64,000 nucleotides of DNA. Source: Notolepis coatsorum (Eukaryota; Chordata; Actinopteri; Aulopiformes; Paralepididae). Numbering within the stretch: the first letter of the stretch is position 1; every line of letters begins with the position of its first letter. Of the stretch, positions 23,742 through 60,737 are shown piece by piece. The translations under genes were made by a program, and so were the position numbers. Below the pieces are notes generated by a model. It worked only from the letters and a program-made list of their open reading frames with translations. It was not told where the DNA came from and did no database searches. The stretch is taken from the NCBI GenBank assembly GCA_963971535.1, contig OZ020591.1, positions 13,113,577-13,177,576 of the forward strand, given 5' to 3'.

Positions 23742-26700
23742 GTTCTGTTTCATTAGGGGCTCTGCTTGGCATCACTACTGCACTATCTCGCGTACGTGCA
23801 CGCGTACTGAATAAACCACAAATGTACCTCTAATACCAGTATTAGTCTGACCACACCCCTCATCAGCTTACCTTCATAAGCAGGTGTGTGGTCACCTGCT
23901 CTCCTCCTTCTCGCTTTCACCACAAGGAAGAAGTGCCTCGGTAGATCCCCACACTTGACACCATGATGGAAGAAAGGTTTAGGAGCAGCTTTGGGAAACA
24001 AGGATACGTTGACATCATATCTTTATTTTCTCTCTCACTATTTTCGAGAAAATACGGCGATATTGTCTTCGTACTGGAGTGTCTGGAAGATGATGATCAT
24101 TCTAAAAACCCTCCACCGGTTTTCGTATTGGGAGCACGCCGCTGCATGCTTCTCAACTGCAGTTCCTTGCTGTGTTTGTTGGGGTGAAACCTGTCAGGCC
24201 ACAGCTGAACTGTCGGACATGCCGCTGTTGTGAGAAGCGGTGCGTTCCAGGTTGGGTGAGTAGTGTTTGCTGGCGGGCTCCACTTGTCTGTTAGTGCTAT
24301 GGGGGCTACTTGACAAAGTTTATGGAAACCGGCCCCAGGCTAGGGTCCTTTGTTCAGCCACCTAGGCGACAGAAGGCCTTGGTCTGGAGACCATTATAGT
24401 TTTAACTAGTGGGCCGCGACCATTGACACTGGTGATCCCTGTGTGTTCTGGACGAGTGGATTTTCTCTGTCACCGTGTTAAGGCCCCATCTTTCATATCC
24501 AAATGAGAGTATTCCTTCACGAGGGGATATGTGCATGTAATGTGCGATAGCGGCAGATTCATGTTCAAAGTCAGCTACACAGGCCAGTTGGTACTGTGCT
24601 GATTCCGTCGGATGTGGTAAAGTCACCGTTGTGAAGCGGTGTTGACATCTTGTTTTCTCTTTTCTCTTAAAAAGTGAGGAGAGGTTCAGAACGGCGGCCT
24701 GTCTGGGTGAGTGTTATGTCATTGTTTACATGTTCATAGCTTACGGTTAGCCAGTCAGCTGTTAACTGCTGCGTTAGCCTGCTGGATCGCTGCATGGCCT
24801 GCTTAAGGCCTACTATTAGCCAGTCAGCTGTTAGCTGCGGGGCTAGCATGTCGTGGTCGCTAGGTAACGTTAGCTTGCTGCTATGGCCATGGCCTGGCGC
24901 GGGGTAGCTTAGCTTCTCGCGCGCCGCCGTGAGCTCGCTTCTGATCGCGTGCGTCGTTAGATCGGCGTCTCGCGAGCAGAAGCAATAGCACCCGAACGGT
25001 TGGAGCAGCCGTTAGCTTGATGCTATTCTGTTGAACGTGCTTTGATTTTAACATGTTTTACACTCTTGACCACGACGTCATCCTTGACAGGGGATGTTCG
25101 TCGACCCTGCCCTGAGCCTGGACGGGGATTGCGTCAACAAAGAGGACTGTAGCGACTGGTTGGAGCGGCGACGCTGCCCGGATCGAACAACACAGGACGG
25201 CTGTGTTCTACGGTGTCTTGTGACTGCACTTCGCTGATCTGCGTTCCGGGTAGGAACGGGGTTGACCAGACCTCATAACACGTCTTCTGGTTTTACTTTG
25301 CTAAATGTATTGTGAATAACGGTGTTTTTCCCAAAACGTGTGTTGCTACAATGCATTTAGGATACGTTGCGGGTTATGTGTGAGCTGTTTTTGTCACTGG
25401 CAGTTAGCTTCTCCGTGCAAACGGGATGTAATGATCTGGTTGTTGTGTGAGTAACACGGCCGTGTACTCACAACTAAGGTAACTAACCTATGAAGCTATG
25501 CTTGGTGACAAGTGAGTAAAAGAATTTTCTTTCTCAGACTGTAATGACAATGAACAGTGTGTTCACACATTAACAGGTTTTCCTGTTTTAACTGGCCGTA
25601 TTGAGGGTAAAATAGGAGGATTGTGTTTTCCCCCCCGGTTCCCTGGGGACTTTATCACCTCCTATCAGACATGTTGTGCATTAATTGTGTCTTTTGTGTG
25701 GTAGGGATACGATGTAACTCTTAGCTTGATTGCTGAGGTTGTGCTAAATCTGCTGGAGAAACTTATTTCCTAAAGGGAAATTGGTTTGGTTGCTGTCATG
25801 TGTGCTTAGCAAGGCCTGTGGTCGATACTAATCAAGAATGATGTATTCTCTCATTGTGAAAAAAACGGCGTTCCTCTGTTGAGTGTTTTTGCCATTTTTT
25901 GTAGGTGATGATGGGTTGTGTGTGTCATGTGACCTACAACTGGGTTGTACTGGCCACAGAAGCACATGTGTATGTTGGACCGGGGTTCTTATAGCCCTCT
26001 CTATTCTGTGTTTTTCCTTAGTAAAAATCAGATAGCAGGTTAGCTCATGCGCTGTGTGGAGCTGTGAAACGCTTCATAGAGCTGACTATGACTGTGTCAT
26101 ATTCTCTTTTTGTCGTTACGTCGTATCATGGGTGTGGGGTCGTAAAGGGGTGAACTGGTAACCTTTCCTCTCCCCATTGTTCTGTCGGTCAGGGGTACAC
26201 CCCCTGTCCTTCAAGGTTCCCGTCACGTGGCGGTTCGGCACGTTACGGGGGGGGGGGGGGGGGGGAGGGAGTTCCTGGTCCCACGGCCTGGTATATTGGG
26301 CGTGTGCACCGCAGGAATTCCCCCGCCATAGAGTACGTCACCGTGCGCGTCTCTGTTGGTAGGACTTCCGTGTGCTGTTCAGGTCCATGTGATGGATCTG
26401 TTTTCAGGGGGGGTGGTCAGGGCTCCTCCTCACCAAGCGCCTATTCAGGCCTTCTGTGAGTTCGGACTCCTTCTTCCATGTGAGGAAGCCTCCATCAGAG
26501 TACAGAGCCTTCCTCCTCAGATTGTCAAAGTGAGTGGACCCTCTAGAAGGGTCCTTTTCTATTGTATGTATATTCGATTCAATTCGTTTATTGAGTGTGT
26601 ATGGGTTCAGTGCCTCTTCCCCGGAGGCCCTAAAACCAGTTTTTTACATGGCTCAAGGTGCAATATATTCTTTTCAATCTGTACAGCTCGCGTGGGAAGT

Positions 26701-27464
26701 CTCTCTGGGGATCCCCGTCTCTTTCCTATGGGAGGGTGGTGGGATGTAAAAATGTGAACATTTTTTACCCCGGCTGTGTAGACTGGGATACATACTGTTG
26801 ATGCTTCCTTCTTTCTATTCCAGAAGTGTTGGAGTTAGGGAGTGTCACACCCCTCTTGTCGTTCCCCTGGGCGCCTTGGGGATTCAATGACAGGTCTCAA
26901 TAGCCTGTTCATTGATGGGGGTGTGTCCCGACGCACGTATAGTGCTAGCTCGCTGTAAACAGGCGATTGACTGGCACGCCTTGGTTGCTTGTGGTTGAAA
27001 CAGCGTTTTTATAAAGCAACTGAGATGGGGGTTTTTCCTCTTCCGACGACCACATCCCATGACCTGGGTGGGTTGTCGACGGATTCTCGTTCATGTCTGG
27101 GGGATGATGACGGGATGGATCTGAACATATGTAGTGGGGTCTCACGCCCTTGGGGTGGGCCACCAGGAGCGGTTCGTCCGAACGTCTGGGTGGCGCCTTC
27201 TTTTCATGTTAAGATCAACACGCATATCTGCCCTTCTCCTGGAGTAGGCATGTCGGCGTGGTTAGGGCACGGGACTGGTTCTGGTCACGCTGGTCCAGAT
27301 CAGTTGAACCCGTTGTCCGCCGGGGATGCAGATCTGCTGTTCTGGTACCCTGAGGGACTTGGGCTTTTTTCAGGGGGAAAAATGCCAGGTCGGTCTGGGT
27401 GTCACAGGGTTAAGCGCTATGGAGACCCTGGTTGGGTATGTTTTTACTCAGCACTGTCGTCATG

Positions 27465-27583
27465 GCTTACAGCCATGCCATTCTGTACGCGCTCGATCTC
27501 GTCGGATCTCGGCCGCTACACAGGTTGGTCCTGGTTAGTACTTGGTTGGGAGACCGCCGGGGAATACCAGGTACGGTGTGCTT
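27465..27583 (+). pseudogene. 5S rRNA-derived sequence 1 (full length, diverged)
   Basis: 119 bp align end to end with vertebrate 5S rRNA: GCTTACAGCCATGCC at the start, GATCTCGTCGGATCTCGG in the middle, CTGGTTAGTACTTGG, GGGAGACCGCC (box C region) and GAATACCAGGTAC near the end. The box A region is altered (GGCCGCTACACAGG). A TTTTT, the usual pol III stop, follows about 20 bp downstream at 27603. The same stretch and T run are kept in copy 2 (56949-57067). Too diverged to be a working ribosomal RNA, but the internal promoter could still be used. Confidence 0.85.
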
Positions 27584-28162
27584 AGGGGCTGGTTCTCCAT
27601 TATTTTTCGCTCCTCTCTCACGCATGGCGAAGAGGGGCCTGTGGGGGTGGTTTTTTGACCTCCTCTGGTGACCCTGTGCTTCCCGTACCGCCAGGCCCGG
27701 TCCGAAGTGATGTTTGCGACCCGTAGGCCTGGGTTAACCCTTTTTGGAAACTGAAACACTTGTACTGCGGTATAGCCGGTGTATACCCGCAGGTGTGTTT
27801 TGGAGTTTTTTCTTGAGGGGTTATAGGAACAACCACCGCATTGGGTAACACCGAGGTGGTTGATTCCCTGGTGTGTTGGAGCAGTGTCAACTCCCGGGTT
27901 CACCGTTTGAGGGTGCCCCTGCACGTTCATGACGTCTGCCAATCGTGTCAGCCTTCTCTGCCTCGACCCCTCTGGGTGGGGGTTTTTAAATGGAGGCTTG
28001 GTCATGCAACACCGCCAGCTTACGCTCCTTCCGCCGGGGCGGCTGTGTTCAGCTGTCCCCTCTGGCGCCTGTCTCGTCCGCAGTCTCCAGGCTAGGGTTA
28101 ACAGCCTGTTGCCTGGTTTTTCCCCGGTGCGCTGCCTGCTTCCGTTGGTTAACCTTTTTTGT

Positions 28163-28200
28163 GTGCTTACGGCCATGCTGACTGTCTGTTCTGCAGGGTT
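28163..28200 (+). pseudogene. 5S rRNA-derived stub
   Basis: GCTTACGGCCATGCTGACTG resembles the first 20 bases of 5S rRNA and then departs. It lies between the two longer 5S-like stretches and is also present in copy 2 near 56345-56370. Confidence 0.55.
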
Positions 28201-28243
28201 AGTGTGCCAGGCGGTGTACTGTTGGGGGGACGGGGCCCGCTCG

Positions 28244-28357
28244 GCTTACGGCCATACCGACCTGAACACGCCCGATCTCGTCCGATCTCGGAAGCTGAGC
28301 AGGTTCTGGCCTGGTTAGGACTTGGGATACCGCCTGGGATTACCAGGTGCAGTAACT
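28244..28357 (+). pseudogene. 5S rRNA-derived sequence 2
   Basis: About 114 bp very close to fish 5S rRNA: GCTTACGGCCATACC, TGAACACGCCCGATCTCGTC, CGATCTCGGAAGCTGAGCAG (box A region), CCTGGTTAGGACTTGG, then CCGCCTGGGATTACCAGGTG. A few bases of the GATGGGAGACC box C are missing. In composite copy 2 only the two ends remain (56240-56288), so the middle was lost there or gained here. Confidence 0.88.
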
Positions 28358-28886
28358 GGGGGGCCTTTGTCCGAATACGCTGGCGATGTGGGGGGCGGGG
28401 CACTACGTGCCCACCTGGTGGGGTCTTGATGCTGGCATCATGGACTTCTCCGGGCCCCCATTCCAGGGAGTCCAGTCCTTTTGGTGGGTCTGGGTCTTCC
28501 TTCGCGCTCCGCTGCTACGGCCTTGCCACGGGGTTGGGTTTGCCCTTGACCCCGTGATTCTGGGGGCAGTAACGAGGTTGTTCCTCCGTTCGTTCCCGGG
28601 TGGCATGCGGGTTGTGCGTGTGTGTAGTCGTGGGGTCAAGCCACGGTCTGCTCACCCTGTGCGTTAAGTTGCTTGAGTGCCTCTTCGCACGGTCGGGTCC
28701 GTCGCCTTCCCGTGAAGCCTCTAATAGGGGGGATACCCTCCATTAGGGGGGGTCGGGGGGGCTCGGCCCTCCCTGTTCTGATGGTTTTGGGGGGCTGTCA
28801 GCGGGGTGTATTTGTCAGCCAGCGGCTCCGCTTGGCCTCCCTTTGTGCAGTAGTGATGCCAAGCAGAGCCCCTAATGAAACAGAAC

Positions 28887-29175
28887 GTTAGGTTATGACT
28901 ATAACCAAGTTCTGTTAATTAGGGGTGACGCTTGGCATCAGACGGCCGCTGCAGCCCTTGACCTCACCTTGTGGTTAAAGCTTGGGAAGGAGGAGAGCAG
29001 GTGACCACACACCTGCTTATGAAGGTAAGCTGATGAGGGGTGTGGTCAGACTAATACTGGTATTAGAGGTACATTTGTGGTTTATTCAGTACGCGTGCAC
29101 GTACGCGAGATAGTGCAGTAGTGATGCCAAGCGTCACCCCTAATTAACAGAACTTGGTTATAGTCATAACCTAAC
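28887..29175. mobile_element. Short unit of composite copy 1
   Basis: 289 bp with identical 54-bp inverted arms. The inside shares the terminal ~200 bp of the long unit (TATCTCGCGTACGTGCACGC, AATACCAGTATTAGTCTGAC, AGCAGGTGTGTGGTCACCTG in either orientation), plus GACGGCCGCTGCAGCCCTTG. It looks like a deletion derivative of the long unit that now forms its neighbour. Confidence 0.8.
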
Positions 29176-29199
29176 GTTAATGTATATCTTAGAAGTTTG

Positions 29200-29435
29200 C
29201 GACCATGTCGACCTGAACAATGGGGGATTAATAAGAACGAGCCGCCTCGGAGAGAAGACGGCCGCTGCTGCTGAAACCACCGCCTCGCGTCGCCTCGCTG
29301 GCTCTTCCGCCTCACAGCGCGGCAGTGGGCGATAATGGGGGTGTGCTAGCGCGCGGTCACGTGGGCTTAGTGGCCAATCAGAGGAACCCGGAAACCGAAC
29401 TGCGTTGTATTTGGCATAGACGCAGGAGGGGTGGG
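29200..29435 (+). repeat. CCAAT-box repeat, inverted partner of 22031-22250
   Basis: AATAAGAACGAGCCGCCTCG, GGCTTAGTGGCCAATCAGAG and ACTGCGTTGTATTTGGCATA match 22031-22250 as reverse complement. With that segment it brackets composite copy 1. Confidence 0.8.
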
Positions 29436-29439
29436 TGGG

Positions 29440-29765
29440 GGACACTGTACCACTGTACAAGCAAAACTGTACATTGGAATATTGACAAGACCATACTTGG
29501 TAATTTACTGTACATTGGAGGGGGTTGTGTTAGGACATTTACAGGGGCCACTCTATTCTCTTATGCAACTCATATTCACTCCACAAACTGAAATATACAT
29601 ACATTGTTGAATGAACAGCCTGTTTCTTGAAGTTAGACTCTCCTCTAAATTGTAACCCGCCTCTCTATAACAGAATTTTTGGATGTTACCCGGGAGTGAA
29701 TTGTTTCGTGCTTTAAACATGATTTGTGCAGTCTTAAATTCAGCCAGGTCCCAGAGTTTCATGGC
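29440..29765 (-). pseudogene. LINE C-terminal fragment and 3' UTR
   Basis: In minus sense the reading MKLWDLAEFKTAQIMFKARN-NSLPGNIQKFC matches the post-RT end of jockey-group LINEs. The 3' UTR part (AACTGTACATTGGAATATTG, ATTGGAGGGGGTTG) recurs at 44020-44215. Confidence 0.65.
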
Positions 29766-29911
29766 ATGTGATTTAAAAAATAGTGTGTGTTTGTGTGTTT
29801 CAGATATCCTACCTTATTGATAATCAAATCAAAATCAAATGTATTTGTAAGGCCCGACAACACACGTTAATGTCCCCATGGGCCATACTTTTGCTATGCT
29901 ATACACTACAG

Positions 29912-29985
29912 CAGGGGTGGCCAACCCGCGGCTCGCGAGCCGCATGCAGCTCTTTGCCCGTCAATGTGCGGCTCTTCCATCCATA
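29912..29985 (+). mobile_element. hAT element end (CAGGGGTGGCCAACCCGCGG)
   Basis: CAGGGGTGGCCAACCCGCGG followed by CTCGCGAGCCGCATGCAGCT is a typical vertebrate hAT terminus. It runs directly into a long TA repeat, and the opposite end was not found in the window. Confidence 0.55.
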
Positions 29986-29991
29986 AAAAAA

Positions 29992-30122
<131 letters not shown>

Positions 30123-30179
30123 TTTTTACTTTTTTTTTTTTTCTTTACTTTTTTTTTTTTATGTCACTCATTCCATAAG

Positions 30180-31020
30180 GACATAGAATAAACATTTAAA
30201 AAAAAATTTAAATGGTCCATTGGCATGTTCTTGCGATCTGAATCTAGGGACATAATAGATCAGTGTCAGAAATAGTGTGTCTGTTACTAGGCTTGAGTAA
30301 ATTGTAATGAACCAAAGGAGAATATCAATTCTATTTAATATTTTTTTTATCTTTGACTGTGAATAACACCATGCTAAAACTGACCAGACCTGAAAAATCT
30401 AAGCAAATGAATAAAGGGAAGATTATTAAACAGAAGGTTTTGTAGATACAGTACTGAATTCTGCCATCTTTTTTATAATGTAAATTTCTCCACCATTTTT
30501 CATCGTATTACAACACCGTTTTTTGCAAGACGTTCACAGAAAGGTATAGAGAAACTAACTGTGTTCTGTTTTATGGCAATAACGTTCAGGTTTGTGGGAG
30601 ATAATCCCAAAAAATAAGAGAAATAAAAAAGTAAATCCAGAAGTCATGATTGACAGGGGCTGGTGTGAGTAGGGTAGTTTTTCGAAATTCGAAAGCCCTG
30701 AGTCTCTTCCTTCAAAAGACTACACTCACTTTTGGCTGTGCCACTTCCTCCTGTCAATAGACCACGCAACACTTCTGGGATTCTGAAATCGGGGAGGAGA
30801 TTGCGGGGGGGGGGGGGGCAAATGAATGAATGTGGATGAGAGCCTTGACATTAAGTGATTGCAGATACGGCTGTGGGGGTGCTAGAGACATGATCGAATA
30901 GACTTGTATGCGCCTGAATCTCCTGAACACGGCGCGAGACATTCCTAATCGATCAGAACTAAATCGGCCGCGAAAAAGACCGTTTTTAAGCATCGATTCC
31001 CCATGCACATGCGCAGATTG
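30180..31020. other. No recognisable gene
   Basis: AT-rich, with a G run near 30807. TGACAGG...CCTGTCA flanks about 100 bp at 30650-30758, a weak inverted pair. Nothing else can be supported. Confidence 0.3.
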
Positions 31021-31029
31021 GCCACGGAG

Positions 31030-31560
31030 CAGTGGCGGCCCGTCAATGGGGGCGCTAGAGCGCCGCCCTCCCTGTTAAAAGAGAGAAGAAGAAGACATTT
31101 TAAATTTTTTTTTATTATAGCCCTATAAATAATATAAACATGTTTAAAATGAATAATATTTACTCATTTTAAGTATGTTTGTGTTTCCAATGCACAATAT
31201 AACGTTAATATATCAAATATAAATAATTGTTTTCATGAACAGGAAGTGACTGTCTGATAGAGAATACGTTCCGTAGCCGCATTTCTCTCGGGCAACCCGT
31301 AGCTGCATTTCTCTCGGGCTAGATGCAATAGCGCTTACAGTGGGCGTGCTGTATCCGTCGCAGCCAATCAGTGCGTAACGCGCTGTGCGTTGAAATATGA
31401 TGTATTATGATGGAAGCCGGGCGCGTTTTAAAGCGATCAAAGCAAGCAGCGTCTATAATTTCCGTAGCCGCATTTCTCGGAGACGCTCTCTGATTGGCCG
31501 ATGCCAGTTTTTTCCGTAGCCGCATTTCACGGAGACGCTCTCTCTGATTGGCCGACGCCA
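31030..31560 (+). repeat. Possible hAT-like end and CGTAGCCGCATTTCTC repeats
   Basis: CAGTGGCGGCCCGTCAATGG at 31030 looks like a CAGTGGCGG-type hAT terminus. Further on, CCGTAGCCGCATTTCTC-type words occur four times (31274-31525), and CTGATTGGCCGA CCAAT motifs occur twice. It may be the 5' part of the element that carries the SWIM-YqaJ gene; this is inference. Confidence 0.4.
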
Positions 31561-31768
31561 GTTTCTGGTTAGTAGATAGTTACTCGATGCTAGCTGTTGC
31601 TCGTCACTCACACAGTACTTGTTGCCTAAGGCTAACAAGAAGCTATATATATGGATGCAGTGTGGACATGGATGGACATCAACACAGTCTGGACAGTGGA
31701 TATACTTTATCAAGCCCTTCTGCCCGCTGGACCACTGTGCGTTTCAACTTAACAAGTGAGAGTTGCGA

Positions 31769-31912
<144 letters not shown>

Positions 31913-33368
31913 TGTGTAGGGCATATTGGAAGCGTGGCTGCATTTGACTGACTGTGATCATATATTGATTGATGGCAATGGTGATAGTTGTACCTAATTA
32001 AATATTCGCCAATGCGTGGTACATGTTTGCAAAATGTTTGGTATAGCGCCCCTCATGGAGAAGAATGTACCGGCCGCTACTGCCACAGAGTGTGACGCAA
32101 CGCACATCCACCCTGGAATGTTCCATTAGAGGGGGTGTTGTGTTGTGAGAATGTGAGCGGCAGGTTACGATATTTAAAAAATTGCTAGCTATATGAGTAC
32201 CTTGCCAGCTGCTGAAAAGTGCCGGTATTTGAACAAAATTGCCTGCTTTGGTGGCCAATGTCCTTTCAGCAGAACAGGAGAATGGAAAAACGATCCCACT
32301 CAATGGGCAGACGTGTCTTATGGCGACATCTACAATTACCTGATTGAGTCTCCAGGTATAGACTAGTAATGTTGATTTTCAGTCATCTATGACATTTTTT
32401 GCCTAGATATACAAAAAATGTCATATATGTCATATATTATACGTCTATACCAGCACCTGCTAGACTAGAATAGGCTGTCATTAGCCTACTATGTAGCCTA
32501 AGCTACTGATTATAAATGCACAACACTGTGCAATATTACACTTACTGTATTCCTTTTACTGTTATATTATATTTTATTCTATCTTAGGCACTTTGTTTTG
32601 TTATTCTTATTTGTGACTTGTTCTGTCTAAATGTTTAATGTGAGCGATGTGTAGTGTCAAATGTCCCTTGGGATAATAAAAGTATTTGTATGCTATCATG
32701 CATAGCATTAATTTCCATGGTCTCATACAGGTGTTTACACAGCTACAAAAATGAAAAACTATAAATCCCTGGAGGCGCACATGTTTTTTTCGAGTGGTTG
32801 GGTATCTATTGTGCAGCACTATAAACCCGAAAAAGACATGACAGTATTCAGAACCCAGGTGAAGCCATCCTGGAGGGTCACAGAGAAACCCCACAATACA
32901 TGGGTCGCTGCCAGGAGCACAGGAGACATTGTAAGTGCTCACTGCGATTGCATGGCAGGGTAAGCTGACACTCAAACAATACTATAATTAATAATACCTA
33001 CACTTGGTTGAGAAAAGTAATGAGTTCTACATCTTAATATAACATATTGAATGAAATTACTGTAGTTAAAAGTAACTTCCATTTCAGACTCGGAGAGACA
33101 TGCTCTCATGTGGGGGCATTGCTTTTTAAACTGGAGACATCGGTCCCTTTGGGCTTTACCAGTGTGGCCCCCACCAGCATAGCCTGTGCATGGAACAAAG
33201 TCTCCACCAAAAAGGTGGAGGGAGATAGAGTTTCAAATATAAACTTTTATTCGGACAAGGCAAAGAGTACGGGAGGCAGGGCACGGAAAGGCCCAATTCC
33301 AGTCGCCAACCCACAGCAACAAGAGCAGTTCCTTCACCTGTTGGCTGCGACTGGAGATCTCCCTGTAC

Positions 33369-35165
33369 ATTTACATTTTTACATTTAGTCATTTAGCTGA
33401 CGCTTTTATCCAAAGCGACTTACAAGTTCTGTAAGACAAGCCATCAGGAAGGGCACAACTCTATCAGCTGAGTAACAATGTTCATCAAAGTGTTGAGTGC
33501 TACAGTGTAGGTTAGTTTATTAGGACAAGTGCATGACAGTATGGTTAGTTAGGGTTAGATTTATTTTTTATTTAATTTTTTTTTAATTCAGATAATGGTT
33601 GAAGAAGTGCGTCTTTAGTCGACGGCGAAAGATTGGACGTGTTTCGGCTGTCCTAACTGGGGTGGGTAGTTCATTCCACCATTGTGGGGCAAGGACTGAG
33701 AATAGGCGACTTCTCTTTGATGACCCTCCCGGAGCTTGGATAGGAGTAGGTCTGAGGCGGCCAGAAGATGCAGAGCGTAGGGGTCTTGAGGGTGTGTAGT
33801 TAGAGACCATTGACCGGAGGTAGGCGGGAGCGGTTCCCTTTGCCGCACGGTATGCTAGGTCGAGGGCCTTGAAGCGGATTCGTGCAGCAATGGGGAGCCA
33901 GTGCAGGTCCCTAAGAAGTGGGGTGACATGGGCCGACTTCGGTAGGTTTGAGATCAGGCGGGCCGCTGCGTTCTGAATGAGTTGAAGAGGCTTAGTGGCA
34001 GTGGCCGGGAGGCCAGCGAGCAGTGCGTTGCAGTAGTCGAGGCGGGAGATGACTGTTGATTGGACGAGGAGTTGGGTGACTTATTTTGTCAGGAAGGGGC
34101 GGATCCTTCTGACGTTGCTCAGGAGGAATCGGCAGGTTCTGGTTGTCGCTGCGATGTGAGCAGAGAAGTTCAACTGGTCGTCGAGGACAACACCAAGGTT
34201 CTTGGCGGTCGGGGACGCGGTCACAGCTGCATTCTCGACTGTGATGGAAAGGTCGGTCAGGGGGGAGGATTTGGCCGGCAGGTGGAGCAATTCTGTTTTG
34301 CTTAGGTTCAGTTTGAGGTGGTTGGTCGTCATCCAGGCGGAGATGTCGGACAGACAGGCCGAGATCCGCTCAGAGACGTGGATATCTGAGGGAGGGAAGG
34401 AGAGGAAGAGTTGAGTATCGTCGGCATAACAATGGTAGGAGAAGCCATGAGACGTGATAATGTTACCCAGTGATTTAGTGTAGAGGGAGATGAGAAGGGG
34501 TTCTAAAACCGAGCCCTGGGGGACACCCGTCCGCAGGGGGCGGGTGGCCGACAGGGTTCCTCTCCATGACACTTGGTAGGTGCTGTCATTGAGGTATGAT
34601 GACAGCCATGTCAGCGCAGAGCCAGCCACTCCCATTCCTGCGAGGGCCGCGAGGAGGATTTGGTGGTTGACTGTGTCGAAGGCTGCAGATAGATCTAGGA
34701 GAATCAGGACAGAGGAGAGGCCTTTCACTTTTGCTAAGTGAAGTGCCTCTGTGACCGCAATGAGGGCTGTCTCTGTGGAGTGACCAGTCCTGAAGCCTGA
34801 CTGATTAGGGTCTAGGAGGTCATTCTGTAAGAGATAAGCAGTAAGTTGCTTGGATACAGCACGTTCAAGTGTTTTAGAAAGAAAGGAGAGAAGAGAGACA
34901 GGACGGTAGTTGCCTATGACGGTAGGGTTCAGGGATGTTTTTTTTATGAGGGGCGTGACTCTGGCTTGTTTTAGGGAGGTGGGGACCACCCCCGAGTTGA
35001 GTGAGGAGTTGATGGTTGCAGTTAGGAATGGGAGGATGTCTGGTGCTATGGTCTGGAGGAGTGGGGAGGGTAGCCGGTCCAGCTGGCATGTAGTCGGACG
35101 GTTTGACGTTACCAGTGTCAGGGTCCCGGCTTCTAGGTCTAAGCACCTTCCAAGGGTTTTCGGCA
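33369..35165 (-). mobile_element. L2-type LINE inside the SWIM-YqaJ gene
   Basis: The left end is the well-known fish L2 3' tail in minus sense (TTTACATTTAGTCATTTAGC type, at 33370-33420). The right part is reverse transcriptase. 5' truncated (about 1.8 kb). The right border is uncertain by some tens of bases because no target duplication was found. Confidence 0.85.
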
Positions 35166-36362: not shown

Positions 36363-36576
<214 letters not shown>

Positions 36577-36779
36577 AAGACAAGACCGGCCATCTTTGTT
36601 GACACTGAGGAAGAACCACAGCTACTACACACAGGTAATACAGTAAAGATTCTTACACATAATAGTTAATGCTCTGTTCTCCTTGTGTGGGACACTCACC
36701 TCAGGTTCCAGAGCTACAGGTAAAATGCACTGGTTCACACATTCCTTATATTTAAGATCTAAGAGCTTGGGTTTATTTA

Positions 36780-46183: not shown

Positions 46184-46188
46184 ATTAC

Positions 46189-49440: not shown

Positions 49441-49444
49441 GTTG

Positions 49445-49756: not shown

Positions 49757-49819
49757 CAGTAGTTTCATTAAAAAAAATTAAAATAAAAAAAAAAAATAAA
49801 AAAAAAATTACAAATACTT

Positions 49820-49919
49820 ATTTTTTGCCACACGTATCGGTATCGGTATCGGCCGATTGTGTTAGTTGAACAATCGGTATCGGTATCGGTGGCCAATTTT
49901 CATATCGGTGCATCCCTAG
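49820..49919 (-). mobile_element. DNA-transposon end (CTAGGGATGCACCGATATG)
   Basis: In minus sense, ACTAGGGATGCACCGATATG is followed by ACCGATACCGAT repeats, a terminus common in fish hAT-like MITEs. The other end was not seen. Confidence 0.5.
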
Positions 49920-49927
49920 TGTGTACG

Positions 49928-50925
49928 CAGGGGGCGAAATTAAAGCCCGCCACCCGCCATTGGCGAGCAGTTTTTACGTTTGGCACCTCCCACTGAGAGG
50001 TCTGCCCGCCGTGTGGCGGGCAATAATAGTCATGTGAAAACCGAAAATCATGATCCAATTCTTAGCGCAGTTCTCACTCGCTGTCTCAGCACAGACATGC
50101 AGCGCACCGCGCACTGCTGCTCCTACCCCTCCCGCACCTGTTTCTGTATGCTGCATGTAAACAGAGGCTATTGCCTCGGGACAGTCACCATGACATTAAT
50201 CTAGTCAGAGGGACCTCCGTGAGCTAATGTTAGCTACTGTTACAAAATGACCCAGTCAACTATTCACTTTTAGTTTAATACATGAGGCATTGTGTAACGT
50301 TATCCAGCCGGCTAGCTACTGATAGCTCCCGACATCAACAACTACTCCAGCAAGTGTCCAGTGCATAATACCTCCGTTGGCTAGGTAGCTCATGTTAGCC
50401 CACGTTAGCACAAGTTGAGGAGGCTCTGCATTTACCATCTTCAGCTAAAATGTTTGTTTACTAAGACGGCTCTCTGTGACTCTGTGAGGGGGAGGGCTGG
50501 ACTCGGAGGAGCCGGGGGGCAAGCGCGCTGAGCGCTCTGAACAGCGCGTCAACAACTTGCGGTAGAACACTCGCCAGCTGGTACCGATACTGCAGAAAGT
50601 ATCTGTACTTCGGGAAATGAGTATCAAAGCCGTTTTAAATATTCAGTATCGATATGTATCGATACTTCGATATTTTTTACAACACTAACACAGACAGTGG
50701 AGCTGTTTGCAGACAGCGAGGTGGCGATGTCTCGCAGATAATACAACTACAAGTATGATTATATAATATATATATTTTATTTAAAAAATATTTTTTTATA
50801 TAAAATAATAATTATTATTTTTTTAATCAAAAAAAAGTTGGCAGGTAAGAAATATGCTTGGCGGGTAGATTCTTCCCATCTACCCGCCACTGGCTGGTGA
50901 GTCAAAAAGTTAATTTCGTGCCCTG
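49928..50925. mobile_element. hAT-like element with CAGGG ends
   Basis: The left end is CAGGGGGCGAAATTAAAGCC and the right end ACTTTTTGACTC...TTAATTTCGTGCCCTG in reverse sense; both enclose CCCGCCA/TGGCGGG words. The inner part holds a GTATCGATATGTATCGATAC palindrome near 50650 and may be a nested MITE. No matching 8-bp duplication was found, so the borders are tentative. Confidence 0.5.
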
Positions 50926-51117
50926 ACTGTATTGTTCTTTTATTTTTTGCTCACACAATATCTTAACAATATAAAACTCAAAAGTAGCCACTGCAGCCGT
51001 TGTCACGAGCTCTGCTCTTCTGTGTTCACATAACTTTCCCAAAACAGTACTGTCATAAATGTCATGATTAGATTAGATTAGATTTTTATATCTGTATGTT
51101 GTGTATGTCATAAATGT

Positions 51118-51230
51118 CATTATAAATTGAAAATGGGGGACCCTGATGTAAACAAGACGAACGTCTTTCTCTGGTCTGCATCCCCTTAACAATTGTGTGT
51201 ATTGAGCCGTACTGTATTGTTTTATACATA
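51118..51230 (+). mobile_element. LINE family D tail fragment
   Basis: ATTGAAAATGGGGGACCCTG, CAAGACGAACGTCTTTCTCT and AACAATTGTGTGTATTGAGC are the family D 3' UTR. Confidence 0.8.
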
Positions 51231-52055
51231 CAGTATGTTGTCTACTTGACCCTCAAAGTGCAGATTGATGCATTTAAAATTCTAAATGTTCAAAATGTTC
51301 ACCGGACTACGCCCCAAATGTGTTCCCCCTACCTTTGAAAACAAAATGACGCCCTTGCATACACAGTGGGTAATATCCTGGTTTCCTTTCCATGCTAAAT
51401 ATGCTAAAAGACCACAGGCTTCAAAGGCTGTTGCCAGGTAACCAGACATGAAAGCAGTTAAACCCAACAGTTATCGCTGGTTGGATACCAACTTTGAAAT
51501 CAACGAACAGACAGAAAATAAGAACAACTTACTGTATCACAAAAATTAATGTAGTGGAGACACATAGCCTATATATCGTGGATGGAAGCCATCTGTGAAA
51601 TGCCATTTTCATACATTAAATATAACTTTAATCTTGAATTCCATTTTTTTGTTTCGATACAAATGCACTGACAAAGGGAGAAGATTATTCACAGCATTTC
51701 TCAACAAACTGTCAGAATAAAACAAAGCATGGGGGGTAAAGACTGAGATGCCAGTATTTAAGAACCAAAGTCTTCGGTTTTAGAGTGAAACGTAACATCG
51801 AGTTGATGGCAATTCAAATGTCCAAGTTCATTTCTGTCAAATTTAATTAAAAGAAAATATATATCCCCATTTTCAGCAAATGGATCGTTTATCTCAACAT
51901 ACACAATATCTAGGAAACCGTATATTTATATCTAGGAAACCATATCTTCAAGCCTTTAGACGTCTTACCGTCTTCTCCAGAGAGAGACAAGAAGATAGAT
52001 ACCAGTCCTCCTCTCTGTGCGTTCAGTAGAAAGCTACCACACTACAGACGGTTAA
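51231..52055. other. No recognisable feature
   Basis: AT-rich unique-looking DNA. A short duplicate TATATCTAGGAAACC near 51920-51945 is all I see. Confidence 0.3.
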
Positions 52056-52258
52056 TTTGGTAGTGAAAGGTTAACCTTCTGTAGTGTGGTAGTGAAAGGT
52101 TAACCTTCTGTAGTGTGGTAGTGAAAGGGTTTACCTTCTGTAGCGTGGTAGTGAAAGGGTTAACCTTCTGTAGTGTGGTAGTGAAAGGTTAACCTTCTGT
52201 AGTGTGGTAGTGAAAGGTTAACCTTCTGTAGTGTGGTAGTGAAAGGTTAACCTTCTGT
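52056..52258 (+). repeat. 29-bp minisatellite, part 1 (~7 copies)
   Basis: Unit CCTTCTGTAGTGTGGTAGTG plus AAAGGTTAA. The array is interrupted twice: by the LINE at 52259-55244 and by composite copy 2 at 55422-60586. Further parts lie at 55245-55421 and 60587-60737. Confidence 0.95.
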
Positions 52259-55244
52259 TCAAGTTCAAGTTCAAGTTCAAGTTCTTTAATAGTTGTCATA
52301 CAGAAGTACAGAATACTTTCATACAAAATGCTTCTTACTGTTACGCTCCAGAGACTGTGCTAGACAAGATAGTATCAAATAACATAATAACATAATATAG
52401 CATGAATTTAGAAGAAGAATGAGGTCACAGTTGTTCGGTATAGACATATGTACAATGTTCTGAGTTACCATATAATATACAATACACAATACTATGCAGT
52501 GTACTAATGTACAGTACTATCTAGTGCAAAGCAGAAGTGGGATGAGGTACAATTTTAGGTACAATTTACAGTAAGGTGTACGAGTTGTAGTGCAATCCTT
52601 CATCCATAAATATAAAGTGTGGGGAGTGGGTGCTACAGTGTGTTTGTTTAAAGTGGGTGTGTGCTATAAAGTGTGTGTAGTGGGTGCTACAGTGTGTTTG
52701 TTTAAAGTGAGTGTGTGCGTGTGGATGTGTGTGCTATGTGTGTTTGGTGGTTGTTGTTGTGTAGTGTTCATTCATTGTTCGTTTAGCAGCCTGATGGCCT
52801 GGGGATAGAAGCTACTTCTGAGTCTTTCTGTGCTCGCCTTGAGACTCCTGTGTCGCTTGCCTGACGGCAGCAGTTCAAAGAGGCAGTTGTTCGGGTGGCT
52901 CGAGTCCTTAATAATTCTCTTAGCCTTCCCCTTGCAACGCTTGTTGTAAATGTTCTGGAGAGTGGGGAGCCCCCCTCCAATTGTGCGTTCGGCTGAACGT
53001 GTCACTCTTTGTAGTCTGCTTTGGTCTTTTGCAGTGCTATTCCCAAACCAGGAGGTGATGTTGCCGGTCAAGATGCTCTCTATTGTACATGAGTAGAAGT
53101 TCTTAAGGATCTTCTGGCTGACTTGGAACTTCCTTAGGCGCCTGAGGAAGTAGAGGCGTTGTCGTGCCTTCTTCACCACACTGTTAATGTGTATGGTCCA
53201 TTTCAAGTCCTCGGATATGTGGGCTCCGAGGTACTTGAAGCTGTTGACTCTCTCAACCGGTGCCCCGTCGATGCTGAGGGGGCTGTAGTCCTTGACCCCC
53301 GACCTCCTGAAGTCCACAATCATCTCTTTTGTTTTGCTGACGTTCAGGGAGAGGCTGTTTTCCTGGCACCATCCCGCCAGGACCTTGACCTCTTCCAGGT
53401 AGGCCCTCTCGTCGTTGGCAGAGATCAGGCCCACCACCACTGTGTCGTCAGCAAATTTGACGATTGTATTGCTACTCCGCTGAGCCACACAGTCGTGTGT
53501 GTACAGGGAGTAGAGGAGGGGACTCAGAACACAGCCCTGGGGGGCCCCTATGTTGAGGGTGATGGATGAGGAGGTGCAGTTGCCTGCTCTCACCACCTGG
53601 GGTCTGCCAGTCAGGAAGTCCAAGACCCACTGGCAGAGGTCATAGCCCAAGCCCAGGTCCCTGAGCTTGGCTATGAGTATGGAGGGGACTATGGTATTGA
53701 ATGCCGAGCTGTAGTCGATGAATAGCATTCTCACATAGTTCCCCTGCCTCTTGTCCAGGTGTGATGCTGCTGTGTGCAGCACATGGGATATGGCGTCCTC
53801 CGTGGACCTGTTGGGGCGGTATGCAAATTGCAGGGGGTCCATGTTGATGGGGAGGGAGGAGCAGATGTAGCCCTTTACTAGCTTCTCAAAGCACTTCATG
53901 GCTATGGAGGTGAGAGCTACAGGGCGGTAGTCGTTGAGGCAAGCAGGCTTGGATTTTTTGGGTACAGGGATAATAGTGGACTTCTTCAGGCAGGTGGGGA
54001 TGACAGCCTGTTCTAAGGACAGGTTAAATATGTCAGTGAATACTGGGGCCAGTTGGTCGGCACAGACTTTTAGGACGCGGCCGGGGATGCCGTCTGGACC
54101 TGCTGCCTTCCTGATATTCACTTTTTTAAAGGTCCGCCTCACCTCATGCTCTGTTACCCTGAACACTGCGCCTCCATCAGCAGCCGACCCCCCCCCCCCC
54201 ATTGCCGAGGCTTGTGAGCTGGTGTTGTTATTACCAGCATCAAACCTCGCATAGAAGGTATTGAGGTCGTTTGCTAAGGAGATGTCATTGTTCAGTTTGA
54301 GGGAGGCGCCTTTGTAGTCTGTCATCGTTTTGAGCCCCTGCCACATAGCTCTAGAGTCAGCTTGTTCAAACTGGAGTTCAATTTTATCCCTGTAGCGCCG
54401 TTTGGCCTCTGACACTGTCCTCCTTACGTTGTGTTGCGCCACCTTGTGGTCATTCATGTTGCCTGCCACTAGGCCGTCATTGTATGCTTTGGTGCGCTCT
54501 CTCAGAGCTTCACGGACGGATTTGTCTACCCAGGGTTTTTGATTTGGGTAAACTTTCATTTTGGTAGTGGGGATTGTTTCTTTCACCCTAGTACAGACAT
54601 AGTCCAGCACTGTCTCCGTGTAGGCATTAATGTTATCTGTGTCGCGGAATACAATCCAGTCTGTGTTGTGGAACACTGACCGGATCGTGTCCTCTGACGT
54701 CACATCCCATTTCTGCACCTCTCGCGAGACTACGGGAGTACTTTTAATTCTTTGTCTGTACTTTGGTGTAAGGAAAATGGATGCGTGATCTGACTTGCCA
54801 AAGCCACTATCAGAATGAGCCTTGTAGCCACCTTTAAATTGCGTGTAACAGTGATCTAGGATGTTACCGCCTCTGGTGTTGCAAGTCACATGCTGGTAGA
54901 AATCAGGCAATACCTTTCTCAGATTGGCGCTATTGAAATCTCCCAGTACTAAAATGGCGGCGTTAACGTTCGTCGCTTGTATATTATTTACCTCGTCGTG
55001 GAGTCTGGAGAGCGCGGCGTTGTTGTTGGCTTGCGGTGGAATATACACTCCGACCAGGACGATCGCCGTTAACTCCCTCGGGAGGAAGAAAGGACGACAC
55101 TTGATGGTTATATATTCCAGTTCTGGGGAGCAGTAGTTGGATAATTCCTTCACATTCGTTGGATCACTCCAATTTTTGTTAAACATGAAGGCAATACCTC
55201 CACCACGTTGTTTACCGGACTCTGATTGTGTCCGATCCTTCCTT
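52259..55244 (-). mobile_element. LINE family C (CR1/L2/Rex1 group), 5' truncated, inserted in the minisatellite
   Basis: The 3' end in minus sense is ACTATTAAAGAACTTGAACT with (AACTTG)n. The 5' end is cut inside the endonuclease at 55244. CCTTCTGT at 52251-52258 and 55245-55252 can be read as an 8-bp target duplication taken from the minisatellite. About 3 kb. Confidence 0.9.
52772..55186 (-). CDS. LINE family C endonuclease-reverse transcriptase
   Basis: 804 codons without interruption. The endonuclease shows LVGVYIPPQANNN (about 44), LVLGDFNSANLRK (about 78) and GFGKSDHASIFL (about 127). The RT shows KKSTIIPVPKKSKPACLNDY-RPVALTS (about 405), MLFIDYSSAFNTI (about 490), GAPQGCVLSPLLYSLYTHDC (about 545) and VKFADDTVVVGLI with the catalytic Asp pair (about 574). 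Then LSLNVSKTKEMIVDFRR and RQRLYFLRRLRKFQVSQKIL. It ends FYPQAIRLLNEQ. Upstream DNA to 55244 still encodes RTQSESGKQRGGGIAF, so the first Met is internal to the endonuclease and the true start is lost. RT motifs look intact; the missing 5' end should prevent autonomous mobility. Confidence 0.92.
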   Translation of the reverse strand: MFNKNWSDPTNVKELSNYCSPELEYITIKCRPFFLPRELTAIVLVGVYIPPQANNNAALSRLHDEVNNIQATNVNAAILVLGDFNSANLRKVLPDFYQHVTCNTRGGNILDHCYTQFKGGYKAHSDSGFGKSDHASIFLTPKYRQRIKSTPVVSREVQKWDVTSEDTIRSVFHNTDWIVFRDTDNINAYTETVLDYVCTRVKETIPTTKMKVYPNQKPWVDKSVREALRERTKAYNDGLVAGNMNDHKVAQHNVRRTVSEAKRRYRDKIELQFEQADSRAMWQGLKTMTDYKGASLKLNNDISLANDLNTFYARFDAGNNNTSSQASAMGGGGSAADGGAVFRVTEHEVRRTFKKVNIRKAAGPDGIPGRVLKVCADQLAPVFTDIFNLSLEQAVIPTCLKKSTIIPVPKKSKPACLNDYRPVALTSIAMKCFEKLVKGYICSSLPINMDPLQFAYRPNRSTEDAISHVLHTAASHLDKRQGNYVRMLFIDYSSAFNTIVPSILIAKLRDLGLGYDLCQWVLDFLTGRPQVVRAGNCTSSSITLNIGAPQGCVLSPLLYSLYTHDCVAQRSSNTIVKFADDTVVVGLISANDERAYLEEVKVLAGWCQENSLSLNVSKTKEMIVDFRRSGVKDYSPLSIDGAPVERVNSFKYLGAHISEDLKWTIHINSVVKKARQRLYFLRRLRKFQVSQKILKNFYSCTIESILTGNITSWFGNSTAKDQSRLQRVTRSAERTIGGGLPTLQNIYNKRCKGKAKRIIKDSSHPNNCLFELLPSGKRHRSLKASTERLRSSFYPQAIRLLNEQ

Positions 55245-55421
55245 CCTTCTGTAGTGTGGTAGTGAAAGGGTTAACCTTCTGTAGTGTGGTAGTGAAAGGT
55301 TAACCTTCTGTAGTGTGGTAGTGAAAGGTTAACCTTCTGTAGTGTGCTAGTGAAAGGTTAACCTTCTGTAGTGTGGTAGTGAAAGGGTTAACCTTCTGTA
55401 GTGTGGTGGTGAAAGGTTAAC
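55245..55421 (+). repeat. 29-bp minisatellite, part 2 (~6 copies)
   Basis: The same unit as 52056-52258, between LINE C and composite copy 2. It ends GAAAGGTTAAC, where AAC is the left target duplication of the composite. Confidence 0.95.
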
Positions 55422-55711
55422 GTTAGGTTATGACTATAACCAAGTTCTGTTAGTTAGGGGCGATGCTTGGCTTCGCCTTCTGCACTATCTCGCGTACGTG
55501 CACGCGTACTGAATAAACCACAAATGTACCTCTAATACCAGTATTAGTCTGACCACACCCCTCATCAGCTTACCTTCATAAGCAGGTGTGTGGTCACCTG
55601 CTCTCCTCCTTCCCAAGCTTTCACCACAAGGTGAGGTCAAGGGCTGCAGCGGCCGTCCGAAGCCAAGCATCGCCCCTAACTAACAGAACTTGGTTATAGT
55701 CATAACCTAAC
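55422..55711. mobile_element. Short unit of composite copy 2
   Basis: Identical inverted arms (GTTAGGTTATGACTATAACC..., 54 bp) around the same inner sequence as 28887-29175. Five arm positions differ from copy 1, each changed in both arms. Confidence 0.8.
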
Positions 55712-56239
55712 GTTCTGTATCGTTAGTGGCTTAGCTTGGCTTCGCCTTCTGCACAAGGGAGGCCAAGCGGAGCCACTTGGCTGACAAATACACCCCGCTG
55801 ACAGCCCCCCAAAACCATCAGAACAGGGAGGGCCGAGCCCCCCCGACCCCCCCTAATGGAGGGTAGCCCCCCTATTAGGGACGTCACGGGAGGGCGACGG
55901 ACCCGACCGTGCGAAGAGGCACTCAAGCAACTCAACGCACAGGGTGAGCAGACCGTGGCTTGACCCACGACTACACACACGCACAACCCGCATGCCACCC
56001 GGGAACGAACGGAGGAACAACCTCGTTACTGCCCCCAGAATCACGGGGTCAAGGGCAAACCCAACCCCGTGGCAAGGCCGTAGCAGCGGAGCACGAAGGA
56101 AGACCCAGACCCACCAAAAGGACTGGACTCCCTGGAATGGGGGCCCGGAGAAGTCCATGATGCCAGCATCAAGACCCCACCAGGTGGGCACGTAGTGCCC
56201 CGCCCCCCACATCGCCAGCGTATTCGGACAAAGGCCCCT

Positions 56240-56288
56240 CAGTTACTGCACCTGGTATTCCCAGGCGGAACCAACCAGGCCAGTAAGC
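56240..56288 (-). pseudogene. Residual 5S-like sequence 2 in copy 2
   Basis: In minus sense GGCTTAC is joined directly to TGGCCTGGTTGGTTCCGCC and TGGGAATACCAGGTGCAGTA, i.e. the start and the last third of a 5S sequence. About 62 bp present in copy 1 are absent. Confidence 0.75.
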
Positions 56289-56948
56289 CGAGCGGGCCCC
56301 GTCCCCCCAATAGTACACCGCCTGGCACACTGACCCTGCAGAATAGGCAGTCAGCATGGCCGTAAGCCCACAAAAAAGGTTAACCAACGGAAGCAGGCAG
56401 CGCACCGGGGAAAAACCAGGCAACAGGCTGTTAACCCTAGCCTGGAGACTGCGGACGAGACAGGCGCCAGAGGGGACAGCTGAACACAGCCGCCCCGGCG
56501 GAAGGAGCGTAAGCTGGCGGTGTTGCATGACCAAGCCTCCATTTAACAACCCCCACCCAGAGGGGTCGAGGCAGAGAAGGCTGACACGATTGGCAGACGT
56601 CATGAACGTGCAGGGGCACCCTCAACCGGTGAACCCGGGAGTTGACACTGCTCCAACACACCAGGGAACCAACCACCTCGGTGTTACCCAATGCGGTGGT
56701 TGTTCCTATAACCCCTCAAGAAAAAACTCCAAAACACACCTGCGGGTATACACCGGCTATACCGCAGTACAAGTGTTTCAGTTTCCAAAAAGGGTTAACC
56801 CAGGCCTACGGGTCGCAAACATCACTTCGGACCGGGCCTGGCGGTACGGGAAGCACAGGGTCACCAGAGGAGGTCAAAAAACCACCCCCACAGGCCCCTC
56901 TTCGCCATGCGTGAGAGAGGAGCGAAAAACAACGGAGAACCAGCCCCT

Positions 56949-57067
56949 AAGCACACCGTACCTGGTATTCCCCGGCGGTCTCCCAACCAAGTACTAACCA
57001 GGACCAACCTGTGTAGCGGCCGAGATCCGACGAGATCGAGCGCGTACAGAATGGCATGGCTGTAAGC
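56949..57067 (-). pseudogene. 5S rRNA-derived sequence 1 in copy 2
   Basis: The reverse complement of this 119-bp stretch is nearly identical to 27465-27583, including GGGAGACCGCC and GAATACCAGGTAC. The downstream T run is kept (AAAAA at 56925-56929 on the + strand). Confidence 0.85.
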
Positions 57068-60000
57068 CATGACGACAGTGCTGAGTAAAAACATACCCAA
57101 CCAGGGTCTCCATAGCGCTTAACCCTGTGACACCCAGACCGACCTGGCATTTTTCCCCCTGAAAAAAGCCCAAGTCCCTCAGGGTACCAGAACAGCAGAT
57201 CTGCATCCCCGGCGGACAACGGGTTCAACTGATCTGGACCAGCGTGACCAGAACCAGTCCCGTGCCCTAACCACGCCGACATGCCCCAGGAAAAGGGCAG
57301 ATATGCGTGTTGATCTTAACATGAAAAGAAGGCGCCACCCAGACGTCGGGACGAACCGCGCCTGGTGGCCCACCCCAAGGGCGTGAGACCCCACTACATA
57401 TGTTCAGATCCATCCCGTCATCATCCCCCAGACATGAACGAGGATCCGTCGACAACCCACCCAGGTCATGGGATGTGGTCGCCGGAAGAGGAAAAACCCC
57501 CATCTCAGTTGCTTTATAAAAACGCTGTTTCAACCACAAGCAACTAAGGCGTGCCAGTCAATCGCCTGTTTACAGCGAGCTAGCACTATACGTGCGTCGG
57601 GACACACCCCCATCAATGAACAGGCTATTTAGACCTGCCATTGAATCCCCAAGGCGCCCAGGGGAACGACAAGAGGGGTGTGACACTCCCTAACTCCAAC
57701 ACTTCTGGAATAGAAAGAAGGAAGCATCAACAGTATGTATCCCAGTCTACACAGCCGGGGTAAAAAATGTTCACATTTTTACATCCCACCACCCTCCCAT
57801 AGGAAAGAGACGGGGATCCCCAGAGAGACTTCCCACGCGAGCTGTACAGATTGAAAAGAACATATTGCACCTTGAGCCATGTAAAAAACTGGTTTTAGGG
57901 CCTCCGGGGAAGAGGCACCGAACCCATACACACTCAATAAACGAATTGAATCGAATATACATACAATAGAAAAGGACCCTTCTAGAGGGTCCACTCACTT
58001 TGACAATCTGAGGAGGAAGGCTCTGTACTCTGATGGAGGCTTCCTCACATGGATCACATGGAAGAAGGAGTCCGAACTCACAGAAGGCCTGAGTAGGCGC
58101 TTGGTGAGGAGGAGCCCTGACCACCCCCCCTGAAAACAGATCCATCACATGGACCTGAACAGCACACGGAAGTCCTACCAACAGAGACGCGCACGGTGAC
58201 GTACTCTATGGCGGGGGAATTCCTGCGGTGCACACGCCCAATATACCAGGCCGTGGGACCAGGAACTCCCTCCCCCCCCCCCCCCCCCCCCCCCCCCGTA
58301 ACGTGCCGAACCGCCACGTGACGGGAACCTTGAAGGACAGGGGGTGTACCCCTGACCGACAGAACAATGGGGAGAGGAAAGGTTACCAGTTCACCCCTTT
58401 ACGACCCCACACCCATGATACGACGTAACGACAAAAAGAGAATATGACACAGTCATAGTCAGCTCTATGAAGCGTTTCACAGCTCCACACAGCGCACGAG
58501 CTAACCTGCTATCTGATTTTTACTAAGGAAAAACACAGAATAGAGAGGGCTCTAAGAACCCCGGTCCAACATACACATGTGCTTCTGTGGCCAGTACAAC
58601 CCAGTTGTAGGTCACATGACACACACAACCCATCATCATCACAATGAGAGAATACATCATTCTTGATTAGTATCGACCACAGGCCTTGCTAAGCACACGA
58701 CAGCAACCAAACCAATTTCCCTTTAGGAAATAAGTTTCTCCAGCAGATTTAGCACAACCTCAGCAATCAAGCTGAGAGTTACATCGTATCCCTACCACAC
58801 AAAAGACACAATTAATGCACAACATGTCTGATAGGAGGTGATAAAGTCCCCAGGGAACCGGGGGGGGAAAAACACAATCCTCCTATTTTACCCTCAACAC
58901 GGCCAGTTAAAACAGGAAAACCTGTTAATGTGTGAACTCACTGTCCATTGTCATTACAGTCTGAGAAAGAACATTCTTTTACTCACTCGTCACCAAGCAT
59001 AGCTTCATAGGTTAGTTGCCTTAGTAGTGAGTACACGGTACACATAAACACCATGATGTTTCTCACACAACAACCAGATCAATACATCACGACCTGCACG
59101 GAGAAGCTACTGCCAGTGACAAAAACAGCTCACACACAACCCGCAACGTATCTCAAATGCATTGCAACAACACACGTTTTGGGAAAAAACACCGTCATTC
59201 ACAATACATTTAGCAAGGTAAAACCAGAAGACGTGTTATGAGGGTCTGGCCAACCCCGTACCTGCCCGGAACGCAGATCAGCGAAGTGCAGTCATAAGCC
59301 ACCGTAGAACACAGCCCTCTTTGTTGACGCAATCCCCGTCTAGGCTCAGGCAGGGTTGACGAACATCCCCTGTCAAAGATGACGTCGTGGTCAAGAGTGT
59401 AAAACATGTTAAAAATCAAAGCACGTTCAACAGAATAGCATCAAGCTAACGGCTGCTCCAACCGTTCTGGTGCTATCGCTTCCGCTCGCGAGACGCCGAT
59501 CTACGACGCACGCGATCAGGAGCGAGCTCCCGGCGGCGCGCGAGAAGCCTAAGCTACCCCGCGCCAGGCCACCGACCGGCTAACCGTAAGCTATGAACAT
59601 GTAAACAATGACATAACACTCACCCAGACAGGCCGCCGTTCTGAACCCTCCTCACTTTTTAAGAGAAAAGAGAAAACAAGACGTCAACACCGCTTCACAA
59701 CAGTGACATTAACACGTCCGGCGGAATCAGCACAGTACCAACTGGCCTGTATAGCTGACTTTGAACATGAATCTGCCGCTATCGCACATTACATGCACAT
59801 ATCCCCTCGTGAAGGAATACTCTCATTTGGATATGAAAGATGGGGTCTTAACACGGTGACAGAGAGAATCCACTCGTCCAGAACACACAGGGATCACCAG
59901 TGTCAATGGTCGCGGCCCACTAGTTAAAACTATAATGGTCGCCAGACCAAGGCCTTCTGTCGCCTAGACGGCTAAACAAAGGACCCTAGCCTGGGGCCGG

Positions 60001-60586
60001 TTTCCATAAACTTTGTCTAGTAGCCCCCATAGCACTAACAGACAAGTGGAGCCCGCCAGCAAACACTACTCACCCAACCTGGAACGCACCGCTCCTCACA
60101 ACAGCGGCATGTCCGACAGTTCAGCTGTGGCCTGACAGGTTTCACCCCAACAAACACAGCAAGGAACTGCAGTTGAGAAGCATGCAGCGGCGTGCTCCCA
60201 ATACGAAAACCGGTGGAGGGTTTGTAGAATGATCATCATCTTCTAGACACTCCAGTACGAAGACAATATCGCCGTATTTTCTCGAAAATAGTGAGAGAGA
60301 AAATAAAGATATGATGTCAACGTATCCTTGTTTCCCAAGCTGTTCCTAATCCAATTTCTTCCATCATGGTGTCAAGTGTGGGGATCTACCGAGGCACCTC
60401 TTCCTTGTGGTGAAAGCGAGAAGGAGGAGAGCAGGTGACCACACACCTGCTTATGAAGGTAAGCTGATGAGGGGTGTGGTCAGACTAATACTGGTATTAG
60501 AGGTACATTTGTGGTTTATTCAGTACGCGTGCACGTACGCGAGATAGTGCAGAAGGCGAAGCCAAGCTAAGCCACTAACGATACAG

Positions 60587-60737
60587 AACCTTCTGTAGTG
60601 TGGTAGTGAAAGGGTTAACCTTCTGTAGTGTGGTGGTGAAAGGTTAACCTTCTGTAGTGTGCTAGTGAAAGGTTAACCTTCTGTAGTGTGGCAGTGAAAG
60701 GTTAACCCTTCTGTAGTGTGGTAGTGAATGGGTTAAA
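60587..60737 (+). repeat. 29-bp minisatellite, part 3 (~5 copies)
   Basis: The array resumes after composite copy 2 in the same orientation and register, ending GTAGTGAATGGGTTAA. Confidence 0.95.

Follow-up and report, generated by a model that had tools for sequence, protein, structure and literature searches.

The 64-kb window (the whole stretch of Notolepis coatsorum DNA analysed here) contains two copies of a DIRS1-like element, inverted relative to each other. Copy 1 extends from 23742 to 29178 on the + strand (5437 bp, GTT...GTT), its limits being drawn from BLAST together with the ends and flanks, and copy 2 extends from 55419 to 60589 on the - strand (5171 bp), within a 29-bp minisatellite; all features of copy 1 given below lie on the + strand and all those of copy 2 on the - strand. 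When copy 1 was compared with the window by BLAST, the alignment of 23742-29180 with 60589-55417 fell into three blocks, at 96.7, 93.9, and 95.9 percent identity. All results on this element derive from these two copies in the 64-kb window. Both copies harbor a long G run on the element strand (about 26247-26266 in copy 1 and 58268-58297 in copy 2), which is unequal in length between them. The core patterns of the element had no matches in viral_contigs, where records near the genome of the window may have been left out.

Other retroelements are also present in the window. An intact-looking Pao/BEL retrotransposon has a coding frame of 1655 codons at 8427-13394 (-), with Peptidase_A17, DUF5641, and RVT_1 matches, and is accompanied by direct repeats (6889-7188 and 13424-13723) that lie 6535 bp apart and are 100 percent identical over 300 bp, suggesting that its insertion was probably recent. 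In addition, a LINE frame of 832 codons at 52772-55270 (-) encodes an RVT_1 match followed by an ALKBH8_N match.

Terminal anatomy and insertion sites

In copy 1, the left terminus (lTer, 23742-23783, 42 bp) is the exact complement of the left half-ICR (lICR, 28845-28886), and the right terminus (rTer, 29122-29178), including a right extension at 29154-29178, is complementary to the 57-bp right half-ICR (rICR, 28884-28940). The same arrangement occurs in copy 2, where the left terminus (60547-60589, 43 bp) and the left half-ICR (55712-55754), as well as the right terminus (55419-55475, with the right extension at 55419-55443) and the right half-ICR (55658-55714), are exact inverted matches. 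The left end thus matches its inner partner over 42 bp in copy 1 and 43 bp in copy 2, and the right end over 57 bp in both. The preliminary description had given the long arms these same lengths and had rightly called the short arms identical, but it put the latter at 54 bp. The two half-ICRs overlap on AAC, at the same place in both copies (28884-28886 in copy 1), and this 3-bp circular junction is complementary to the terminal GTT. Joining the right end to the left end through a single shared GTT gives a sequence whose reverse complement is the entire ICR, at 96 of 96 positions in copy 1 and 97 of 97 in copy 2. An earlier division of the element into a nested "long unit" and "short unit" misread its anatomy, since the inner joint is the complement of both outer ends.

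The inverted terminal repeats (ITRs) comprise a divergent outer part of 22 bp (left) or 21 bp (right) and, inward of it, a conserved part of 147 or 148 bp, and the right end bears an extra extension of 25 bp. The conserved left ITR of copy 1 (23764-23910, 147 bp) is inverted-identical to the conserved right ITR (28986-29132), and that of copy 2 (60420-60567, 148 bp) pairs with its right counterpart at 55465-55612. The element therefore carries the terminal features of DIRS1-like elements, namely ITRs with a right extension, two half-ICRs near the 3' end, and a 3-bp junction.

GTT is found at both element ends. When the flanks of copy 2 are joined with a single GTT, a normal minisatellite unit is restored, with no target duplication beyond GTT, and the window contains 14 occurrences of AGAAGGTTAACC, the 12-mer spanning this joint. 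The joint of copy 1 reads AAATCCAA-GTT-AATG and likewise displays no duplication beyond GTT, this site having no independent empty counterpart for comparison. Insertion into a trinucleotide site without target duplication, as in DIRS1-like elements, is thus observed, with the empty site coming from copy 2 only. The 29-bp minisatellite has a palindromic AAGGTTAACCTT core and forms three blocks (52058-52258, 55245-55421, and 60587-60736), with copy 2 splitting one array. Copy 1 is flanked by a pair of inverted sequences that are identical over at least 31 bp (22207-22237 versus 29220-29250), about 1.5 kb to the left and about 40 bp to the right of the element, which suggests that copy 1 resides within an older inverted repeat element.

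Mirrored differences between the copies

The long (left) arms of copies 1 and 2 differ by eight substitutions and one 1-base indel, in agreement with the roughly eight differences noted earlier, and the short (right) arms differ by five substitutions of 57. Every one of these changes is mirrored, being carried by both arms of each pair. Moreover, each copy has its own 11-mer common to its four arms, GCTTGGCATCA in copy 1 and GCTTGGCTTCG in copy 2, bearing out the claim that the long and short units at each locus share a variant. Three changes are common to all four arms, an A/G change before TTAG and two in GCTTGGC[A/T]TC[A/G], which would follow if pairing of that block were required in every combination. 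At no more than 1 mismatch, the 16-base and the 17-base variant motif each have three occurrences in the window, with a mean of 0.00 in 100 shuffles, and 13 identical substitutions placed independently among 99 sites have a probability of about 1e-22. The mirrored differences reported in the preliminary description are therefore real, with all arm changes paired and chance excluded by the shuffles and this probability, and its assertion that independent mutation is inadequate to account for them holds. The arms are still identical within each copy, suggesting that both insertions are probably young and that the differences between them arose before insertion.

The differences are unevenly distributed along the element. 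Substitutions between the copies number 8 of 42 in the left pair and 5 of 57 in the right pair, 0 of 127 in each of the left and right conserved ITRs, 1 of 45 in the spacer between ICR and ITR, and 94 of 4624, together with 25 gap events, in the interior. The ICR/end pairs taken together (13 of 99) exceed the interior (94 of 4624), with a Fisher p of 2.4e-7 when each ICR position is counted once, a value to be read with the non-independence of neighbouring sites in mind. The interior is itself uneven, with up to 11 substitutions in 99-bp windows and up to 8, the left-arm value, in 42-bp windows, so the ICR/end excess could reflect patchy exchange between subfamilies. The copying model discussed below does not by itself explain this excess. 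A tentative and rather unlikely reading is that the ICR and the two ends constitute a fast-changing module, evolving several-fold faster than the rest of the element and rewritten blockwise, with the four arms changing together. If true, such a module would point to parasitic DIRS derivatives changing their helper recombinase through ICR exchange, a newly acquired ICR then serving as template for both ends one cycle later.

Interior of the element and 5S rRNA-like stretches

Read through stops, the six frames of copy 1 gave no Pfam family at E<=1, and copy 1 accordingly shows none of the gag, RT/RNase H/MT, and tyrosine recombinase coding regions of DIRS1-like elements. As a control, the same read-through procedure was applied to three frames of a broken LINE in the window and recovered RVT_1 in one. 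Ten ORFs, taken from the 45 of at least 80 codons listed for both copies and their near flanks, yielded a single sub-threshold match (Pep_M12B_propep, E 0.076, 14.1 bits versus a cut-off of 23.7). The longest open frame, of 236 codons, was matched by 22 of 300 block shuffles and is hence not unusual, and a protein search with it returned no matches at E<=0.001 among 161 candidates.

The interior does contain 5S rRNA-like stretches above the Rfam gathering score, two in copy 1 (27465-27582, 66.6 bits; 28244-28358, 76.4 bits) and one in copy 2 (56950-57067, 66.6 bits). They match the whole Rfam model, yet are degenerate. The second stretch was undetected in copy 2, where much of it has been removed by deletion. 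The two stretches are only about 77 percent alike over 110 columns, suggesting that they are old or were separately acquired. With no Pfam domain and with 5S rRNA-like stretches, the element looks like a non-autonomous DIRS derivative, and it is not assigned here as an autonomous member. No autonomous DIRS partner was seen in the few frames scanned in the window. Of 75 Xenopus tropicalis DIRS-like families, 36 are described as degenerate in terminal repeats or ORF domains (PMC9210276). Defective DIRS families as such are thus already known, and what appears to be new here is a non-coding interior with 5S sequence; no such element was found among the titles and opening abstract lines listed from open-licence papers, which does not imply absence from print.

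Proposed ICR templating of the ends and comparison with known elements

Both copies are very likely insertions of a non-coding, non-autonomous DIRS1-like retrotransposon whose ends were completed on the ICR. In Dictyostelium DIRS-1, the transcript is missing parts of both terminal repeats, and their rebuilding on an ICR template has been proposed; circular intermediates have been verified, and the replication model is described as not fully proven by experiment (PMC5633606). Completion of the ends with the ICR as template is the published DIRS-1 model (PMC5633606, PMC3266345). For the Notolepis element, we infer an RNA intermediate, with the ICR serving as template and the enzymes coming from an autonomous relative. 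Such a relative elsewhere in the genome would supply reverse transcriptase and tyrosine recombinase, and the element would be transcribed without its outermost ends. As in the published model, the cDNA ends would then lie side by side on the ICR, where they would be completed and joined. The resulting circle, with GTT at its joint, would recombine with a genomic GTT, leaving no duplication beyond GTT; the observed anatomy has this form, and the enzyme responsible would presumably be the recombinase of the helper.

Because the ICR would template both ends, one further round of replication should be enough to carry a change in the ICR over to the end that it matches. Mirrored arms are hence what ICR-templated completion should leave behind in two source lineages that differ in their ICRs, and the ICR does match the ends base by base in two copies that differ from each other. 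Mirrored change is a consequence of the known DIRS layout, in which the divergent ITR parts are mostly constrained by the ICR (PMC3266345). The preliminary description had named a "copy step during transposition" among its possible causes, which was right in kind, since the published model has the ends built up from the ICR (PMC5633606, PMC3266345). The refuting alternative that it named, two old subfamilies each fixed for their own arms, is probably also true as history, with a copying step still needed in each lineage. Copies whose ICR and ends differ in step provide sequence evidence for the DIRS copying step, and a non-coding element with arms still identical would offer a compact natural substrate on which that step could be tested.

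An improbable alternative retains the DIRS1-like anatomy and attributes the likeness of the arms mainly to chromosomal gene conversion after insertion instead of ICR templating. Complete arm identity in both copies and the three changes common to all four arms at each locus would fit such conversion, but one would not expect its tracts to end at the half-ICR limits or to skip intervening bases that differ between the long and short arms, and the conserved ITR is the same at both loci, which leaves no sign of locus-specific conversion in that segment. Compensatory arm changes produced solely by selection for a paired DNA or RNA structure are very unlikely. Pairing of the ICR with the ends is a requirement of the published model, so that mispaired elements would be immobile; however, all 13 substitutions and the indel are fully matched, with no half-changed state among them, and it is implausible that the two sides changed independently.

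Nesting of two DNA transposons, a long unit of 5 kb beside a MITE-like short unit with arm-to-arm gene conversion within subfamilies, is scarcely credible, because although each unit alone has perfect inverted arms and Galileo of Drosophila homogenises its terminal repeats within a copy, nesting predicts neither a 3-bp overlap of the units at the same place in both copies nor a joint exactly complementary to both outer ends. Target duplications are TA for Tc1, TTAA for piggyBac, and 8 bp for hAT, and no duplications of these types flank the insertion sites. The features of a cut-and-paste element are likewise lacking, there being no duplication beyond GTT and no transposase domain in the six frames of copy 1, although a family with a 3-bp duplication could mimic the GTT and a non-autonomous DNA transposon would also lack a transposase. 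Among specific candidates, piggyBac insertion into TTAA was dropped since the left flank lacks AA, and a Harbinger-type element with a 3-bp duplication, a nested MITE, and Galileo-type homogenisation were dropped as well; all four leave the complementarity of the inner joint to the outer ends unpredicted.

The reading of ICR-templated ends agrees with the published anatomy of DIRS1-like elements, which PMC3266345 describes as combining ITRs and a right extension with two ICRs whose overlap is a 3-bp circular junction, and as lacking a target duplication; PMC8969392 and PMC9210276 describe the same ITR/ICR arrangement. According to PMC3266345, the divergent ITR parts are mostly ICR-constrained, the extensions are in theory 100 percent identical to the ICR, and the ITR boundary carries a conserved sequence, 10 nt or longer, that the two ITRs share with the two ICRs; its counterpart here is the 11-mer shared by all four arms. 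The remark in the preliminary description that no fish family with four termini had been described does not stand, since PMC3266345 reports DIRS1 elements of stickleback and Tetraodon that share this layout. Table 3 of that paper gives divergent ITR, conserved ITR, extension, and half-ICR lengths of 19, 148, 27, and 46-56 for GaDIRS1 (Gasterosteus), 21, 144, 26, and 38-57 for GaDIRS2 (Gasterosteus), and 21, 146, 27, and 36-57 for TnDIRS1a (Tetraodon). Like these three elements, the Notolepis copies start with GTT, have an AAC junction, and combine a divergent outer with a conserved inner ITR (PMC3266345). Segment lengths are close as well (divergent ITR 21-22 versus 19-21, conserved ITR 147-148 versus 144-148, extension 25 versus 26-27, and half-ICRs 42-43/57 versus 36-46/56-57), as are total lengths (5437 and 5171 bp versus 5322-5931 bp), a likeness of layout and lengths (PMC3266345). 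However, the fish DIRS1 elements have RT, MT, and YR coding domains, of which none was found in the six frames of copy 1, and TnDIRS1a ends in GAT, whereas the Notolepis copies end in GTT (PMC3266345).

The element also resembles Dictyostelium DIRS-1 in having inverted terminal repeats and an ICR complementary to both ends (PMC5633606), but DIRS-1 is coding, with a terminal TTA (DIRS1-2 row) and conserved ITRs of 304 bp (PMC3266345). Like the non-autonomous LTR elements Cassandra and Ajax, it is a non-coding retrotransposon carrying 5S rRNA-derived sequence, placed inside the LTR in those elements (PMC10886601) and here in the interior, beyond the limits of the ITRs. With its 5S rRNA-like sequence, this DIRS-type element is thus a parallel to Cassandra among LTR elements.
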